Shown in pieces: positions 26,799 through 35,223 of a DNA stretch of 62,541 nt. Made by a program: the position numbers and the translations under genes. Source of the stretch: Deltaproteobacteria bacterium (GTDB lineage Bacteria > Desulfobacterota > Desulfobacteria > Desulfobacterales > Desulfosalsimonadaceae). The notes beneath the pieces were generated by a model that made no database searches, was not told the origin of the DNA, and saw only the letters and a list, made by a program, of their open reading frames with translations. Position 1 is the first letter of the stretch; each line of letters starts with the position of its first letter. The stretch lies in contig JAADHK010000009.1 of assembly GCA_013151835.1 (NCBI GenBank), forward strand, positions 1 through 62,541, in the 5' to 3' direction.

Positions 26799-27677
26799 TT
26801 AAAAAAGCGTGCCGCCGGATTTTTGCTGGGGAAGTATTTCCGGCCGGATATCTTTCCACCGCTCGCCCACCGGACAGGCACGCATGCACTCAATGCAGTT
26901 GTCCACGTCGGTAATATAGGTTTGTCCGCTTTCCACCAGCAAATCCCGGCGTTTCATATGCTGACGAATCATTCTTATAAATCCAGGCCATTCCCGGAGC
27001 CTTGCCGGCGGCATGCGCCTGAAACCATAAGTCCAGTAAACAAAACAGGGATCCACATCATAACGGTCCGGTTTTAACGCCCCGGATGGGCATGCATCCA
27101 CACATCGGCGGCAATCCTTACAAAGGCCAGGCGTACGCTGTGCATCAGGCTCAAGTTCCGCCTCAGTCACAATGGCGCACAACCGCTGATGAGGCCCGAA
27201 TTCCGGTGTGAGCAGCAGGTTGTTTTTCCCGATCTCGCCCATGCCGCAACTTACGGCCGCGTGTTTCAGAGACAGAAAACCCAGCACCCGGGTCTGGCGG
27301 AATTTTTTCCCGGTTTCAGGGTTAATCTTGAATATCTCAACAGGCTTATCCGCTGAAACAGGAAGGGACAGAAAACCCTCGCGTTCAAGCATGCGGCCGA
27401 CTCTTTCCGCTGTTTCATCCAGCAGGCGGGAGGTCTGCATCTTGCTGCGCGTCCAGAGCATGATATCCGGAGAGTAAACCGCCCCCAGAGAGTGGGCAAC
27501 AGCCATCACGATCACGCTTTTTGCACTTGGCATCAGGTCCGTTGCGGGCCGGGGGGGATAGGCTAAAATCAGATTTCGGGCATCGGCGATCCCCACCAGG
27601 TCAATGCCATTGGAAATGATCATTTTTTTTACAGTAGCGGCATCAAGCTTTTCAGTAATCCCGGATTCCGAGCTCAT
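26799..27677 (-). CDS. QueG-like 4Fe-4S cluster protein
   Basis: A 292-residue protein of the epoxyqueuosine-reductase/reductive-dehalogenase-like group. The N-terminal half resembles the cobalamin-binding QueG core (SAKSVIVMAVAHSLGAVYSP; KHAAVSCGMGEIGKNNLLLT). The C-terminal half has CKDCRRCVDACPSGAL and CIECMRACPVG clusters. It is shorter than true QueG (about 350-380) and lacks the HEAT-like tail, so a tRNA role is unlikely and the function is open. The ATG after GGGAGG lies inside the end of the broken metallo-beta-lactamase frame. Confidence 0.78.
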   Translation of the reverse strand: MSSESGITEKLDAATVKKMIISNGIDLVGIADARNLILAYPPRPATDLMPSAKSVIVMAVAHSLGAVYSPDIMLWTRSKMQTSRLLDETAERVGRMLEREGFLSLPVSADKPVEIFKINPETGKKFRQTRVLGFLSLKHAAVSCGMGEIGKNNLLLTPEFGPHQRLCAIVTEAELEPDAQRTPGLCKDCRRCVDACPSGALKPDRYDVDPCFVYWTYGFRRMPPARLREWPGFIRMIRQHMKRRDLLVESGQTYITDVDNCIECMRACPVGERWKDIRPEILPQQKSGGTLF

Positions 27678-27936
27678 ACGTTCCTCCCTTTTTATCCTTA
27701 CAATAGCTTTTTAAGTTCGCCCAGGTTTGCAAGTGGTCAGAATGAAAATGGGTCAGCAGCACTGCGTCGATCTTCCCGGCCTGAAAGCCCATCAGGTTAA
27801 TATTTTTTGTGCTTCCTTCCCCGGCATCCACGATGTAAAGATGTTTGCCGGCAACAACCGCGATGCACGGCCCTGCGCGTTTTGCATCCGCAAGCGGCGA
27901 GCCTGTCCCGCAAAGGCGGCGTGTTAACAATAACAA
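27652..27936 (-). pseudogene. Metallo-beta-lactamase-fold hydrolase fragment
   Basis: The frame reads LCGTGSPLADAKRAGPCIAV, then a strand ending YIVDAGEGST, and then VLLTHFHSDHLQTW, the HxHxDH metal-binding motif of the RNase Z-like metallo-beta-lactamase family. The protein stops being recognisable about ten residues later, where the frame runs over the start of the QueG-like gene. The N-terminal strand is also clipped: the GRE fusion gene ends at 27924, inside its first codons. About 200 residues that a working enzyme needs are missing, so this is a two-sided remnant. Confidence 0.8.
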
Positions 27937-30900
27937 GTTCTATTAATAATAGCTAATTTCAATTCATCGGAAATGTTATTAAAGTATGAGCAGTAACCGG
28001 CAACACGAACCATGAGGTATTTGTGCTTTCCGGGGTTATTGTATGCATCCAGTAATATTTCCCTGTTAATAACATTAGGTTGAAACTGCATGCCACCTTT
28101 ATTGAAATATGTGCTGATCAGACCAGACAGGTTTCTGACGCCATCAGGACCCTGGAACAATCCCGAATCAATAGTGAACGTAACAGTCGTGCCATTAGGT
28201 GCATAATTTACAAAATCAGCGCCGGCAACAGAATTTAAAGATGATAATAAATCCGTCACTTCCATTCCATAATGAGGCGCAACACTGTTAGCGAGAGGAA
28301 CTCCTCTTAATCTGCCTGAAGGCAGGGCGGGCGTTCTCAATCCATAAATAATATTAACATTCAAGGCATAATAACCGGCAATATATATGCCGTTGCGCGG
28401 ACAGTCCTCTACTGAATTCAACGCATTAACGTAAATCTTTAAAGATTTGTTTATCCACTCCCAGGATTTTCGGGAGCCGTCATCACCAAATTTTGGCACT
28501 TCCAGTAATGCTGATCTGATTTGCTGATAATATTCCCCTTCAAAATTGTTGTCACCGGCTTTAATGATGTCATCAATTGAATACAGCTTTTTCTTGTATA
28601 CAACTTCATCAATGGCATGCAGCGAATCTCCAACATCCGTAATTCCCACCGCCTGAATACCCGCGCTGTTAATCGTAGCGCCTCCTTCGTTCACATCTTT
28701 TCCGCTTTTAATACAACCCGTAAAGAGTGAGGATGCAAGGGGTGTTGTAAAATTTTCAACAATAATTTTTTCAATTTTCTGATGATCCGCCAATATGGAG
28801 GAAGCCAGATGATTCAGACGTTTTTGATAGCGTTCAAGCAATTCATCCATATTCGCAGGAAAATTATAAGAAGATGACGCTTTTTTTATTTTTTTCTTTA
28901 TACGTCTTTTTGTATATTTTGAAAGAAGCGCTTTAAAAAATTTATTATCCCACCTGCTGAGGTTGTATTCTATCGCTTTGTTATTAATTCTCTCAAGTTG
29001 ATCAAAAAACCCAATGTGCCATAACTCATGCTCCTCACCTTTTAGAGCCTGTAAAAAAGGCAAGACAACGTTCATATTGGCGCAGTCGGTATTGCCAAAA
29101 TGATCATCTGAAGCATTGGGTTCAACACAACCAATGACTGCGTAGTTTCGCGAATCCTGTATAGTGGTTTCAGGGTAATATTTTTGTAAAGTTTCAATAT
29201 AAAGTTCATCATTATACAAAGCCGGCATGGGCGCTCCGTTGATATATACCTCTGCAAGCCTGTCCAGATATTCGATGGGGCTGTCTTTATGAATTCTTGC
29301 TGTCATATTTACGGCAAGTGGCTGCAACTCGCAAATATCGAGCAGCATATAGGTAAGATCATTGGTGGCATCCTTACCGTCTTTGCCAAGACCTCCGGCC
29401 GTCACAGCCTGGTCTGTAGACTGAGTCTCAAAAAGTCTTCCGATCCTCAGATAGGTATCGCCATCGTTTACTAAAATAACTTCGTCCATTTTAAGAATAA
29501 ATAAGGCGAGCAGTTCTTTGGCTTTTTCGTAAGTAATTAACCCCGCATTCTTATCCTTTTTATAGTAAGGATATAAAATCTGATCGAGCCGCCCAAAGGA
29601 TACCGCATTTTCAAAAGACTCTATACAAAGTCCGATTTGCAAAAACATCATGCTTTGGAGCGCTTCATGGTATGTGCGGGCAGGGTGTTTTGGAACATGT
29701 CTGCAGATACCGGCCATTTCTTCCAATTCTTTGCGACGTTCCGGATTATTTTCTTTTTTGGACAGACTTAACAAATGGTCCGAATATCGTTTCGCGAACG
29801 CTTCCAAACCCTTTAGGGCAATAATGGCACCATTATAAAAGTCCTGATTATTCTCAGGCTTTTCTTTTTGCATTGTTTCAATTTCTTTTATGATCCCGCT
29901 GGTACCAAGCTTAAGAATCCGTTCGGAGTTAACAACAAAATGTGCTATTGCCGCCATATTATTATTAAATCCGGTACTCAGGTCAGATGCCTGTGCAATT
30001 GTTAACATAAAATCTGAAAAGGATGAATATACCTTGTTGAAAAGGGAGTGTTTTATCCAGAAGGGGAATATTTTAAAATAAAAACTAAACTTGTCCTTAA
30101 GAGAAATTTGGAATGAAATCGGTGTCTGACGATTGATTTGATGAATAATTGAGCTGAACATAACACCACAATGTTCTTCCCATAACTGTCCGCCGACTCT
30201 TTTGGAAGTAAAATTACCGACAAGCAGTTCGTTGGGATAGACAATGACTTCTTTGTTTTCCAATACATACGAAAGGCGTTTCGCCCTATGTATTGGGTTT
30301 GCCTTTTTAAAACCATTCTTCTTATAAAATTTTGTTTTCAGTTTGGCTGCTTCAAGACAAAGGTGATAATCACTTTTTCTAATATCATTTTGTATGTCAT
30401 AAACACGCCTGGTAAAGATGGCTTTATTTGTAAAAGATTCCAAATCAAAGTATTTCGCTTTGATGTCAAAAGATTTGAACAATTCAACTGCGCTTCCTAT
30501 AGCGGCAAGACTTTGATCTGGTGTAATATTTAATGACTCATGCACCAAACGCAAACCTTTGGCTTTCTCTTCGTACATGTTGTGGTACTTCAGCAATTCA
30601 ATTGAGTTATAATTGATAGACTTTAAAAAATCCGCGGCAGCTTTTATACTGCTATTCATATCGTTAAATCCCGGCACAATCACCATGCGGAATTGAATTT
30701 TTGCATCTGCATTTAAATCAATTAGTTTTCTGATATTGCTGTGGATTAATTTGCTGTTTTGTTGAGTGTATTTTTTGTGGAGGGTGTCATCACCAACAAC
30801 CTTTAGATCAATTAAAAATAAATCTATGTACGGTGCGATTTTGCTGATATTTTCCCAAGGTACATGAAGAGCAGTTTCAACGGAAACATGTATTTTCTCT

Positions 30901-31280
30901 TTTCTTAATGATTCCAACAACCGTATCGCACTATCCGGATCCTGCAATAGAGGCTCACCGCCACTTAAAGTCACTCCGCCGCTGGTTTTGAAGAAATACG
31001 CTTTATCTCGCAAAACAACTTCCATTATATCAAAAATTGAATAATTGCTATCAGGCGCTGTGTCGGGTTGAAATGACAGGGCTTCCGGATTTTGGCACCA
31101 TAAACATCTCAGTGCGCATCCCTGAAAGAAAATTGTAGTACGAATACCAGGACCGTCATGAACACAGCTGCGTTGAATGTTCAGGACTCTCAGCTTATCA
31201 GTGCGTAAGTTGTGACTCTCAAAAACAGAGGAACCTGTTTCTCGTTGTTTTAAATGTTGTTTTCTCTGATTAGTTTCCAT
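27924..31280 (-). CDS. Glycyl radical enzyme fused to its own radical-SAM activase
   Basis: A single 1118-residue chain with two complete enzymes. Residues about 30-285 are a glycyl-radical-enzyme activase: IQRSCVHDGPGIRTTIFFQG, then the radical-SAM motif C55-x3-C59-x2-C62 (GCALRCLWCQNPE) and SGGVTLSGGEPLLQ. The ferredoxin-like insert found in many non-PFL activases is missing. Residues about 290-1118 are a full-length GRE: a PFL-type N-terminal domain, the active site VIGCVEP (thiyl Cys718, base Glu720) and the radical loop RVAGYCSYF with Gly1095. GCVE is the signature of dehydratase/lyase-type GREs, not pyruvate formate-lyase, but the substrate is unknown. The ATG follows AGAAGGGG. The DNA is strikingly A+T-rich (11 G/C of 60 at 28861-28920). 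Confidence 0.92.
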   Translation of the reverse strand: METNQRKQHLKQRETGSSVFESHNLRTDKLRVLNIQRSCVHDGPGIRTTIFFQGCALRCLWCQNPEALSFQPDTAPDSNYSIFDIMEVVLRDKAYFFKTSGGVTLSGGEPLLQDPDSAIRLLESLRKEKIHVSVETALHVPWENISKIAPYIDLFLIDLKVVGDDTLHKKYTQQNSKLIHSNIRKLIDLNADAKIQFRMVIVPGFNDMNSSIKAAADFLKSINYNSIELLKYHNMYEEKAKGLRLVHESLNITPDQSLAAIGSAVELFKSFDIKAKYFDLESFTNKAIFTRRVYDIQNDIRKSDYHLCLEAAKLKTKFYKKNGFKKANPIHRAKRLSYVLENKEVIVYPNELLVGNFTSKRVGGQLWEEHCGVMFSSIIHQINRQTPISFQISLKDKFSFYFKIFPFWIKHSLFNKVYSSFSDFMLTIAQASDLSTGFNNNMAAIAHFVVNSERILKLGTSGIIKEIETMQKEKPENNQDFYNGAIIALKGLEAFAKRYSDHLLSLSKKENNPERRKELEEMAGICRHVPKHPARTYHEALQSMMFLQIGLCIESFENAVSFGRLDQILYPYYKKDKNAGLITYEKAKELLALFILKMDEVILVNDGDTYLRIGRLFETQSTDQAVTAGGLGKDGKDATNDLTYMLLDICELQPLAVNMTARIHKDSPIEYLDRLAEVYINGAPMPALYNDELYIETLQKYYPETTIQDSRNYAVIGCVEPNASDDHFGNTDCANMNVVLPFLQALKGEEHELWHIGFFDQLERINNKAIEYNLSRWDNKFFKALLSKYTKRRIKKKIKKASSSYNFPANMDELLERYQKRLNHLASSILADHQKIEKIIVENFTTPLASSLFTGCIKSGKDVNEGGATINSAGIQAVGITDVGDSLHAIDEVVYKKKLYSIDDIIKAGDNNFEGEYYQQIRSALLEVPKFGDDGSRKSWEWINKSLKIYVNALNSVEDCPRNGIYIAGYYALNVNIIYGLRTPALPSGRLRGVPLANSVAPHYGMEVTDLLSSLNSVAGADFVNYAPNGTTVTFTIDSGLFQGPDGVRNLSGLISTYFNKGGMQFQPNVINREILLDAYNNPGKHKYLMVRVAGYCSYFNNISDELKLAIINRTCYC

Positions 31281-31319
31281 TTTAAACCCCTTCTCTCGTC
31301 AATCGTATAAAGTCAAATT

Positions 31320-31337
31320 TTTTTACGATCACTAAAA
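31320..31337. promoter_or_regulatory. Second, degenerate TetR-type operator over the GRE start site
   Basis: TTTTTACGA TCACTAAAA matches the perfect operator at 31371-31388 at 15 of 18 positions, with its centre 51 bp away (about five helical turns). It covers the predicted transcription start of the GRE gene, abutting the -10 box. Binding here would block that promoter directly. Confidence 0.6.
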
Positions 31338-31365
31338 ATATAGTCCAACAGCAACGACCTGTCAA
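31337..31365 (-). promoter_or_regulatory. Sigma-70 promoter of the activase-GRE gene
   Basis: On the minus strand TTGACA (31360-31365), a 17-base spacer and TATATT (31337-31342) form a near-consensus promoter. The leader would be about 50 bases. The promoter is bracketed by two operator copies, so it is probably repressed until the regulator binds its ligand. Confidence 0.75.
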
Positions 31366-34129: not shown

Positions 34130-34281
34130 CCTCTTTACTACGCCATCACCCATTGACACGAGGCACGCCCCCTCCCACGTATCACATATCCGGATTTTTC
34201 CCTGTCTGCCTTCTTGAACATGCCCAATGCCGCCTTATATTATGAAGCAAAATTATGAATCAGCAGGCAAAAGGAGTCAAA

Positions 34282-35223
34282 ATGGGCAACCAGATCAAAA
34301 CAACTGTTCTTCTGGCCGCACTTACCGGAATCATCCTTTGGATCGGGGGGATGTTCGGGGGAAAGGGAGGAATGCTTTTCGCATTTATCCTTGCAGGCGG
34401 CATGAATTTCTCTTCCTATTGGTATTCGGATAAAATCGTCCTGCGCATGTACAAAGCCGAGGAAATAACACCTGAAACCAATCCCGGCGTTTACAGGATC
34501 GTCGAACGGCTCGCGGATAACGCGGGCATTCCCATGCCGCGTATTTACGTGATTCCCCAGGAGGCACTCAACGCCTTTGCCACAGGCCGGAACCCGGAAA
34601 ATGCCGTGATCGCGGTGACCCGCGGCCTTCTGGAATACATGAACGAAGAAGAGCTTGCCGGCGTCATCGGCCATGAGATGGGGCATATCAAGCACCGGGA
34701 CATTCTCATCGGCTCCATTGCAGCAACAATGGCCGGGGCCATCATGATGATTGCAGGCTTTGCGCGATGGGCCGCAATCTTCGGCGGATTTTCCAGAAGC
34801 GGGGACAGCGAAGACGGGGGCGGGATCTTCGGGCTGCTGCTCATGTCGATCATTGCGCCCATAGCGGCCGTGCTGATCCAGATGGCCATATCGCGCTCAA
34901 GGGAATTTATGGCGGACCGTGCTTCAGCCGAATTCAACAGGAACAGCCATGGCCTTGCCAATGCACTCGCCAAGCTCGGTTCATTTTCAAAACAGATACC
35001 CATGAAGGCACGGCCGGAAACGGCCCATATGTTTATCGTAAACCCGCTTTCGAGAAAAAGCCTTGCGAATCTCTTCTCCACCCATCCACCCATTGAAGAG
35101 CGGATAGCAAAACTTACGGGAGTGGATTCAGGAAGATCGGAAGGCAGGAACCAGGGCAATTATAACAGCCCCGACAATGGAATGGAAAACCGGGCGCGAA
35201 ACTTCTGGGACACTTTAAAATAG
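34282..35223 (+). CDS. htpX: Zinc metalloprotease HtpX
   Basis: A 313-residue membrane-bound protease of family M48 that degrades misfolded membrane proteins. [10 protein letters not shown] carries the zinc-binding HExxH, helices flank it, and [13 protein letters not shown] supplies the third ligand region. The start is the ATG six bases after AAGGAG; an upstream in-frame ATG at 34255 is less well placed. It follows the cyclase gene after 152 bases of noncoding DNA. A long C-terminal hydrophilic tail ends the protein. Confidence 0.94.

Follow-up and report, generated by a model that had tools for sequence, protein, structure and literature searches.

The window analysed here is a 62,541-nucleotide stretch of contig JAADHK010000009.1 from a Deltaproteobacteria bacterium. 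Within it, a single minus-strand open reading frame begins with an ATG at 31280, ends with a stop at 27924 and encodes 1118 amino acids, while the plus strand over 27924–31280 is closed by many stops. Glycyl radical enzymes (GREs) and their activases are normally two separate proteins. In this polypeptide, an N-terminal activase is followed, with almost no linker, by a complete GRE. The features of the locus are:

27924–31280, minus strand: fused activase-GRE gene, 1118 amino acids, open from ATG to TAA and matched by homologues
30450–31199, minus strand: activase domain, residues 28–277, radical SAM, PflA-like, without a ferredoxin insert (PF04055, TIGR02494, model on 3cb8)
31095–31118, minus strand: radical-SAM CxxxCxxC motif (C55/C59/C62), kept in all 39 rows spanning both halves
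30408–30449, minus strand: joint, residues 278–291, constant in length and variable in sequence (alignment of fused rows)
27927–30437, minus strand: GRE domain, residues 282–1118 (PF02901, PF01228, structural matches)
29118–29132, minus strand: GCVEP, with catalytic Cys718 and Glu720, in 39 of 39 rows
27990–28007, minus strand: glycyl loop RVAGYC, with radical Gly1095 and Cys1097, both invariant across the 39 fusions
31287–31294, minus strand: Shine-Dalgarno-like AGAAGGGG before the fusion ATG, putative
31318–31338, no strand: another putative operator-like site, TTTTTTTACGATCACTAAAAA, lying towards the fusion gene and differing by one base in locus L035
31371–31388, no strand: 18-bp palindrome TTTTAACGATCGTTAAAA, probable TetR operator, unchanged in L035
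31394–32122, plus strand: divergent TetR-family regulator (TetR_N), a homologue of which neighbours the fusion gene in L035, L038 and L069

All Pfam matches of the protein lie above their cut-offs: Radical_SAM at residues 50–207 (60.6 bits), PFL-like with 450.9 bits (best stretch 291–751) and Gly_radical at 997–1101 (69.3 bits), with PF02901 and PF01228 both above the gathering score. The first-pass annotation had placed an activase and a GRE in one polypeptide, and the single frame, both Pfam sets and the fused homologues found elsewhere bear this out; the residues it named (C55/C59/C62, C718, E720 and G1095) are all correct.

The fusion is a real and widespread family. We collected 46 fused rows, of which 39 (window included) hold both halves in one frame and seven are truncated at contig ends (L041, L056, L068, L070, L071, L072 and L076). 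The other members are 49–93% identical to the window protein, and their hosts are metagenome-assembled genomes labelled Desulfobacteraceae, Smithella, Deltaproteobacteria, Myxococcales, Spirochaetes and Clostridia. Of the 44 fused loci from the genome_contigs set, L035 and L075 evidently repeat contigs of the assemblies G018 and G025. Chance and assembly error are excluded because full-length fusions occur in other assemblies (G018, 93%; G025, 92%; G096, 70%), and these homologues make the resequencing of the junction that the annotation had advised superfluous. The genome is a draft of 147 contigs, in which an artefact or a frameshift might have joined two genes, but recurrence in other assemblies at 49–93% identity refutes this reading, whose probability we regard as practically nil. 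The CxxxCxxC, GCVEP and glycyl motifs are kept in all 39 fusions. Values of dN/dS were 0.15–0.22 against L035, L075 and L036 and 0.09–0.11 against L053, whose dS approaches saturation; synonymous sites were saturated in two further comparisons (L047 and G096), and the ratio comes from the other four. By these values (0.09–0.22), both halves are under purifying selection.

A further 36 loci of lower identity (28–32%, one 25%) appeared as fusions in the hit table, which was misleading, as 31 of them are two separate frames. By pattern, four show one motif-bearing frame only (L092, L104, L108 and L114), and L084 is a single frame with the GRE first and then the activase, running off the contig. 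No relatives were found among 73 candidate stretches in viral_contigs. The GRE half is matched by 141 plasmid records, every one below 60% identity, and in the one inspected of the four best (H1–H4) the GRE and activase genes are separate and overlap.

Quick trees, with SH-aLRT support only and several long reference branches, were built with 39 of the 46 fused rows and 19 of the 36 separate loci alongside reference sequences. The fusions form one branch both in the GRE tree (66 rows, SH-aLRT 100) and in the activase tree (72 rows, SH-aLRT 99), which argues that the two halves stayed together while spreading. The same genome carries six Gly_radical and ten activase-like matches, the fusion counted in both, and the activase half could therefore serve other GREs of the cell while a separate activase switches on the fused one. 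Against this stands the joint history of the halves, and we consider such a division of labour extremely unlikely; some cross-activation is possible, given the other GREs and activases.

The joint between the halves is unusually regular. The stretch 247–291 measures 44 amino acids in 44 of the 46 fused rows; L035 carries four more around position 252, which is not part of the joint, and L070, whose 3′ end is cut by its contig, lacks ∼59 residues, the joint among them, and is either a misassembly or a joint-less member. In sequence, the joint ranks last in conservation among the nine stretches measured (0.56–0.59 vs 0.64–0.87). The annotation had also stated that no start lies between the halves. 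This holds for ATG, absent in frame from codons 236–373 (between 235 and 374), but not for other start-like codons, with TTG at 243, 245, 267, 280 and 340 and GTG at 246. Separate production or maturation of the halves, by internal initiation (for example at TTG267, with AGGAAG ∼10 nt before it, or TTG280) or by proteolytic cleavage within the poorly conserved joint, would return the usual two-protein system. We judge this to be very unlikely, considering the lack of an in-frame ATG, a constancy of length that a cleavage linker would not need, and a frame unbroken in 39 of 39 fusions. Near-abutting domains and a joint of constant length instead suggest that the halves meet at a fixed interface and not through a flexible leash, and the earlier picture of a tethered activase thus does not fit.

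AlphaFold2 models were obtained for the window protein (pLDDT 88.2, pTM 0.88) and for L065, a member at 49% identity (pLDDT 88.3, pTM 0.89). By our own arithmetic from the pTM formula, a randomly placed activase would limit pTM to ∼0.78–0.80; the observed values exceed this ceiling, indicating that the activase placement is predicted with confidence. No structure covering both halves was present among the 50 best matches for each model. A QueE match to the window model ranges over 28–1118, a hint that the GRE C-terminus may pack on the activase; the corresponding match to the L065 model covers 3–252 only and does not repeat it. Two benzylsuccinate synthase matches to the L065 model begin at residues 14 and 17. 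Our reading of the protein draws on neither of these hints. GREs are usually dimers, and a joint with hardly any linker restricts the swing of the activase within its own chain, so the activase might act mainly in trans, on the partner chain or on other molecules, with the fusion mainly setting a 1:1 ratio and co-folding. The constant joint and the high pTM of two divergent members speak for a defined arrangement within the chain, although this could be in cis or in a domain-swapped dimer; we hold a mainly trans-acting activase to be unlikely.

The activase half superposes on E. coli PflA with SAM and peptide substrate (3cb8; Z 29.3, rmsd 2.0, 241 aligned), as does that of the L065 model (Z 31.0), and it shares the radical-SAM fold and motif of both PflA and TIGR02494 activases. 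Its TIGR02494 score (205 bits) exceeds the curated cut-off of 174.35, and the CxxxCxxC motif of GRE activating enzymes is found in 39 of 39 fusions. A Cys-rich ferredoxin insert is a usual but not obligatory trait of TIGR02494 proteins, and PflA has none. In all 39 fused activases the insert is absent, the region comprising 35–38 amino acids with 0–1 Cys, whereas in separate partner activases it was present in 18 of 18 measurable cases (87–106 amino acids, 7–9 Cys); a 19th partner, L099, was not measurable by the insert pattern. The fused half is thus of PflA-like size and, unlike both PflA and the TIGR02494 activases, is joined to a GRE. In the tree, the fused activases sit among insert-bearing activases and not with PflA, which sits on a long branch of uncertain position.

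The GRE half carries a mid-protein catalytic Cys and the glycyl motif RVxG[FWY], the form given in the excerpted text of PMC11528403. The GCVE signature and the catalytic residues of eliminase-type GREs (C718, E720, H447, D732 and Y971) are present in 39 of 39 fusions, in agreement with the dehydratase/lyase-type assignment of the annotation. A Cys directly follows the G-Y of the glycyl motif in 39 of 39, unlike in eight reference GREs. Named classes were tried in turn. Pyruvate formate-lyase was rejected, as Gly717-Cys718 offers no adjacent catalytic Cys pair and TIGR01255 gives 107.8 bits, far below its cut-off of 994.2; HypD, HpfG/HpsG, CutC and the indoleacetate and hydroxyphenylacetate decarboxylases were likewise rejected (196–365 bits against equivalog cut-offs of 1000–1150). 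For TIGR01774 (PFL2-3/glycerol dehydratase), the window protein scores 477.9 and five divergent fusions 444.7–511.6, all below the curated cut-off of 678.2.

In structure, the GRE barrel of the window model reaches Z 46.2, with Z 45–46 to propanediol dehydratase, CutC, N-methyl-hydroxyproline dehydratase and glycerol dehydratase. Propanediol/glycerol dehydratase GREs (5i2g, 9rco and 1r8w) share the fold (Z 45.0–46.2 over 765–770 residues; second model similar) at ∼30% identity, but in both models the Z of CutC and of N-methyl-hydroxyproline dehydratases equals that of propanediol dehydratase, and no dehydratase is singled out. By alignment to 1r8w, counterparts of its Asn156, His164, Cys433, Glu435, Asp447 and Tyr640 are identical in the fusion (the Asn in 38 of 39). 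His281 and Ser282, which presumably bind substrate, are replaced by Asn558 and Ala559 in 39 of 39 fusions, so these two residues of propanediol/glycerol dehydratases are lacking, and Tyr339 apparently corresponds to Asp623 (Asp in 37 of 39). In the propanediol-type locus inspected, unlike in the fusion, the activase is a separate gene. The top PDB sequence match is an Archaeoglobus fulgidus GRE (2f3o, ‘pyruvate formate-lyase 2’; E 2.4e-99, Z 44.6), which has an E-x-x-E-x-A-x-S-x-G-R stretch in common with the fusion but is only 29–31% identical, and its solved chain contains no activase.

Two separate pairs from Desulfobacterales, L078 and L106, resemble the fusion in gene order (activase upstream of GRE), in the RVAGYC loop and in identical residues at 558, 559, 732 and 971. 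In the activase tree they are close to the fusions (support 90), and in the GRE tree they fall outside the 46-row branch containing the fusions. They differ from the fusion in being two genes, in retaining the ferredoxin insert, in their 34% identity and in the residues at 439, 606, 623 and 1003.

Neighbouring genes were rejected as a substrate clue, as no conserved partner was found among the genes listed for the 46 neighbourhoods, many of them short (the neighbour rows of L065 and L081 were invalid). Clusters among the matches listed comprised FadR/GntR in 12, a generic ABC ATPase in seven and TetR in four. MFS_2-type symporters occur in six neighbourhoods, each from Bacillota, with the Pfam check covering L060. 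By eye, TetR-like genes also lie beside L046 and L076, and the remaining neighbours are scattered and often housekeeping.

Taken at its best reading, the window protein is probably a self-contained, self-activating eliminase-type GRE. We infer a mechanism in which a [4Fe-4S] cluster on C55/C59/C62, with a flavodoxin or ferredoxin of the cell as its reductant, would cleave SAM, and the resulting 5′-deoxyadenosyl radical would abstract a hydrogen from Gly1095, either of its own chain or of the partner chain in a dimer of the kind usual for GREs. The radical on Gly1095 would then generate a thiyl radical on Cys718, from which a small polar substrate would undergo C-X elimination (C-O being the likeliest) with assistance from Glu720, His447, Asp732 and Tyr971; the substrate-site changes relative to 1r8w (Asn558, Ala559 and Asp623) make C-O elimination a guess. 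The fixed-length, near-linkerless joint would hold the activase docked on the GRE, and we propose that this docking makes the Cys-rich ferredoxin insert unnecessary. The annotation had further suggested fast in-cis activation, which is hypothetical here, and re-activation after oxygen damage. The latter is doubtful, because oxygen cleaves the radical-bearing GRE chain (an oxygenolytically cleaved PflB fragment is mentioned in the excerpt of PMC12338860), which a joined activase could not mend; re-installing a quenched radical is nevertheless possible.

More speculatively, these proteins may represent a GRE lineage with a permanent activase-GRE complex, a tentative idea in which rigid-joint docking would allow the auxiliary Fe-S domain to be shed as needless for docking or electron delivery and the radical to be re-installed repeatedly within the same chain. 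Safe quenching might be served by the invariant Cys1097, which lies two positions after Gly1095, together with the C-terminal Cys1116, and one gene with one regulator would make a complete on/off radical enzyme.

GrcA is an autonomous glycyl radical cofactor, another re-arrangement of GRE parts with no joining of GRE and activase. The engineered PFL-EutD fusion, as described in the excerpt of PMC9850924, re-arranges GRE parts and likewise leaves the activase unjoined. The annotation knew of no characterised GRE-activase fusion, and a full-text search of open-licence PMC papers, in the excerpts covered, also contained no natural one. No activity, EPR signal or solved structure of a family member came to light. 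New here are the constant-length joint, the absence of the insert from fused activases and the Cys after the glycyl G-Y.

The Gly loop must exit the active site to meet the activase (excerpt of PMC12358834), and activase access to the buried GRE glycine has so far been inferred indirectly. Occurring naturally, at a 1:1 ratio and almost without linker, the fusion offers a ready sample for trapping the activase-GRE encounter by cryo-EM. According to the excerpted text of PMC11528403, the auxiliary clusters of most GRE activases are of unknown function, and the clade-wide absence of the ferredoxin insert is a natural experiment on its role. A one-gene GRE that dispenses with a separately expressed activase would be practical for biotechnology, and the fusion family could help to reveal how GREs are switched on.

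The fusion gene lies on the minus strand, running from an ATG at 31280 to the end of its stop codon at 27924, and encodes 1118 amino acids; the plus strand of 27924–31280 is closed by stops. The first-pass annotation, which named no strand, gave these coordinates and the motif residues correctly, and the stop-free frame it described does cross both halves. Its statement that no start lies between them holds for ATG (none in frame across codons 236–373) but not for TTG and GTG, which occur there. Pfam places Radical_SAM at 50–207, a PFL-like domain from 291 and Gly_radical at 997–1101, every match above its cut-off. In NCBIfam, the N-terminal half belongs to TIGR02494 (activating enzymes; 205 bits, cut-off 174.35), and the C-terminal glycyl radical enzyme (GRE) half is nearest TIGR01774 but below its cut-off (477.9 vs 678.2), and near no equivalog of a known GRE.

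The fusion is widespread: it occurs complete, at 92–93% identity, in two further genomes of the 60 relatives. In samples taken at class and phylum level it is present in 4/291 genomes and in 5/395, the latter count resting on match strength and on open frames 1102–1127 residues long; these samples overlap and each counts the window's genome. A genome_contigs scan (84,980 species) used two exact peptide patterns only and is therefore an undercount. From 115 relatives 80 were kept, 44 of them single-frame fusions (L035–L076, L080 and L081), with L035 and L075 evidently the contigs of genomes G018 and G025 again. Both motif sets are carried by 37, including L051, which starts at query residue 50, while seven are truncated at contig ends. 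With the window and genome G096, this gave 39 proteins with both motif sets out of 46 fused rows in total, not all independent (L060 and L063 are identical; L050/L051 and L060/L062 each share a MAG). All 39 keep C55/C59/C62, C718, E720, D732, H447, N558, Y971 and G1095. By record title, the hosts are Desulfobacteraceae, Smithella and other Syntrophaceae, Deltaproteobacteria, Myxococcales (L046), Spirochaetes and Clostridia/Bacillota; a single truncated fusion (L071) sits on a short contig binned as Lokiarchaeia.

The fusions form a single branch in both the GRE tree (66 rows, SH-aLRT 100) and the activase tree (72 rows, SH-aLRT 99), consistent with one fusion event and subsequent spread of the two halves as a unit. 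Purifying selection acts on both halves, with dN/dS of 0.146–0.220 for the window against L035, L075 and L036, and 0.09–0.11 in the comparison with L053, in which dS approaches saturation; for L047 and G096 dS was saturated and the ratio was left out. Between the window and G025, from another genus, the fusion protein is 92% identical and the gene at 34255–35220, which we take to be HtpX-like, 63%; this single-gene comparison suggests that the fusion recently moved horizontally between genera. The corresponding identities to G096 are 70% and 62%, and no match to the HtpX-like gene was found in G018, where the fusion is 92–93% identical. Two Desulfobacterales loci (L078 and L106) hold unfused activase–GRE pairs, only 34% identical to the fusions, with RVAGYC and the activase-first order of the fusions, a possible image of the pre-fusion state.

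The AlphaFold2 model of the window protein has a mean pLDDT of 88.2 and a pTM of 0.88, and that of L065, the most divergent member (49%), 88.3 and 0.89. Using VIA-align, residues 28–277 superpose on PflA bound to SAM and a substrate peptide (3cb8; Z 29.3, rmsd 2.0, 241 aligned), and residues 282–1118 on propanediol dehydratase, CutC, N-methyl-hydroxyproline dehydratase and glycerol dehydratase, which tie as matches (Z 45–46, rmsd 2.2–2.7, 722–770 aligned); the superposition was repeated with the second model. With the first region ending at 277 and the second beginning at 282, the domains nearly abut. The pTM values exceed the ceiling of ∼0.78–0.80 for an unplaced activase, a hand estimate from the pTM formula, and so imply that the predicted placement of the activase relative to the GRE is confident. 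The stretch 247–291 spans 44 residues in 44/46 fused rows, with four additional residues in L035 near 252, outside the joint (278–291), and the joint has the lowest sequence conservation of nine stretches measured. That the length stays fixed while the sequence varies freely suggests that the joint is structurally constrained. One in-frame fused ORF (L070, 9941–11668, plus strand), whose contig stops within the GRE, lacks ∼59 residues spanning the joint and the GRE start, and is either a misassembly or a real exception to the constant joint.

The fused activases also lack the Cys-rich ferredoxin insert. Measured from the third radical-SAM Cys to GGVTLSGG, the span is 35–38 residues with 0–1 Cys in all 39 fusions, vs 87–106 residues with 7–9 Cys in the 18 measurable activases encoded separately at comparison loci. 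Reference spans are 89–95 (HypD, propanediol-type, CutC, Peptoclostridium and Acinetobacter activases), 92 with 6 Cys (YbiY), 64 with 4 Cys (PflC) and 34 with none (PflA); six short stand-alone activases from the class/phylum sample have 39–49 and none. In the activase tree, built with insert columns included and with a long PflA branch, the fusions group among insert-bearing activases, away from PflA and the short activases (SH-aLRT 98). From this nesting, loss of the insert probably coincided with the fusion or occurred close to it. PMC11528403 describes the auxiliary clusters of most activases as of unknown function, and cites a paper whose title reports that a lasting radical in 4-hydroxyphenylacetate decarboxylase requires the ferredoxin-like domain; according to PMC6325248, GRM5 alone among microcompartment activases lacks the insert.

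Cys1097, immediately C-terminal to the G-Y of the glycyl motif, is present in 39/39 fusions, vs 2/19 separate GREs (L078 and L106) and 0/8 references, and Cys1116 in 38/39 fusions vs 1/19 separate GREs. Aligned to glycerol dehydratase 1r8w, the fusion keeps the equivalents of the catalytic residues Asn156, His164, Cys433, Glu435, Asp447 and Tyr640, whereas His281 and Ser282 become Asn and Ala, and Tyr339 apparently Asp. The GRE half is predicted to act in the manner of a diol/glycerol dehydratase or of some other eliminase, and the activase half in that of PflA. Activation is likely to occur in cis; the radical glycine reached may belong to the same chain or to the partner chain. PMC12358834 states that the Gly loop must exit the active site to encounter the activase. 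Within open-licence full-text literature, we found no description of a natural GRE–activase fusion.

Two features lie downstream of the fusion gene in the window:
27655–27936, minus strand, short fragment of a metallo-beta-lactamase (Lactamase_B, 94 aa), adjoining the 3′ end of the fusion gene with a slight overlap
26802–27677, minus strand, protein of 292 aa carrying a 4Fe-4S double-cluster domain (Fer4_16)

The first looks like a gene remnant, and the second has no clustered counterpart beside other fusions. Across the 46 neighbourhoods, many of them short, no conserved partner gene was found. In 12 of them the gene immediately upstream, in the same orientation, encodes a FadR-type GntR regulator (the sole member checked, at L034, is GntR plus FCD), and in four, the window included, a TetR cluster is adjoining and divergent. 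Between the window's fusion and TetR genes lie the palindrome TTTTAACGATCGTTAAAA and another, related site; both are found again beside L035. Whereas CutC, HypD and propanediol-type GREs at the comparison loci adjoin their own activase and pathway genes, the fusion appears to stand as a one-gene unit, frequently accompanied by a regulator of its own.

The window organism is rich in GREs, with five further Gly_radical genes in its draft genome, on contigs C7, C132, C32, C138 and C44. Elsewhere, L084 (1505–4525, plus strand) shows the reverse order, a GRE then an insert-bearing activase in the same frame, its contig ending within the activase. Compared with L083 (86% identical), which has the two genes overlapping in separate frames, L084 is missing 31 bp at the GRE end; it represents either another fusion that arose independently or a gap in the assembly. 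Among plasmids, the GRE half is best matched by GRE genes, accompanied by activase genes, of Acinetobacter towneri (L115, NZ_CP127890.1) and Moraxella osloensis (H1, H3 and H4), species usually regarded as aerobic; at L115 they adjoin a 6-bladed beta-propeller gene and a carboxymuconolactone decarboxylase family gene.

The constant joint, the absent insert and Cys1097 are three features beyond the first-pass annotation, and as a variant of the GRE system the fusion is genuine: its members form one branch, occur in several phyla and show consistent structural adaptations.
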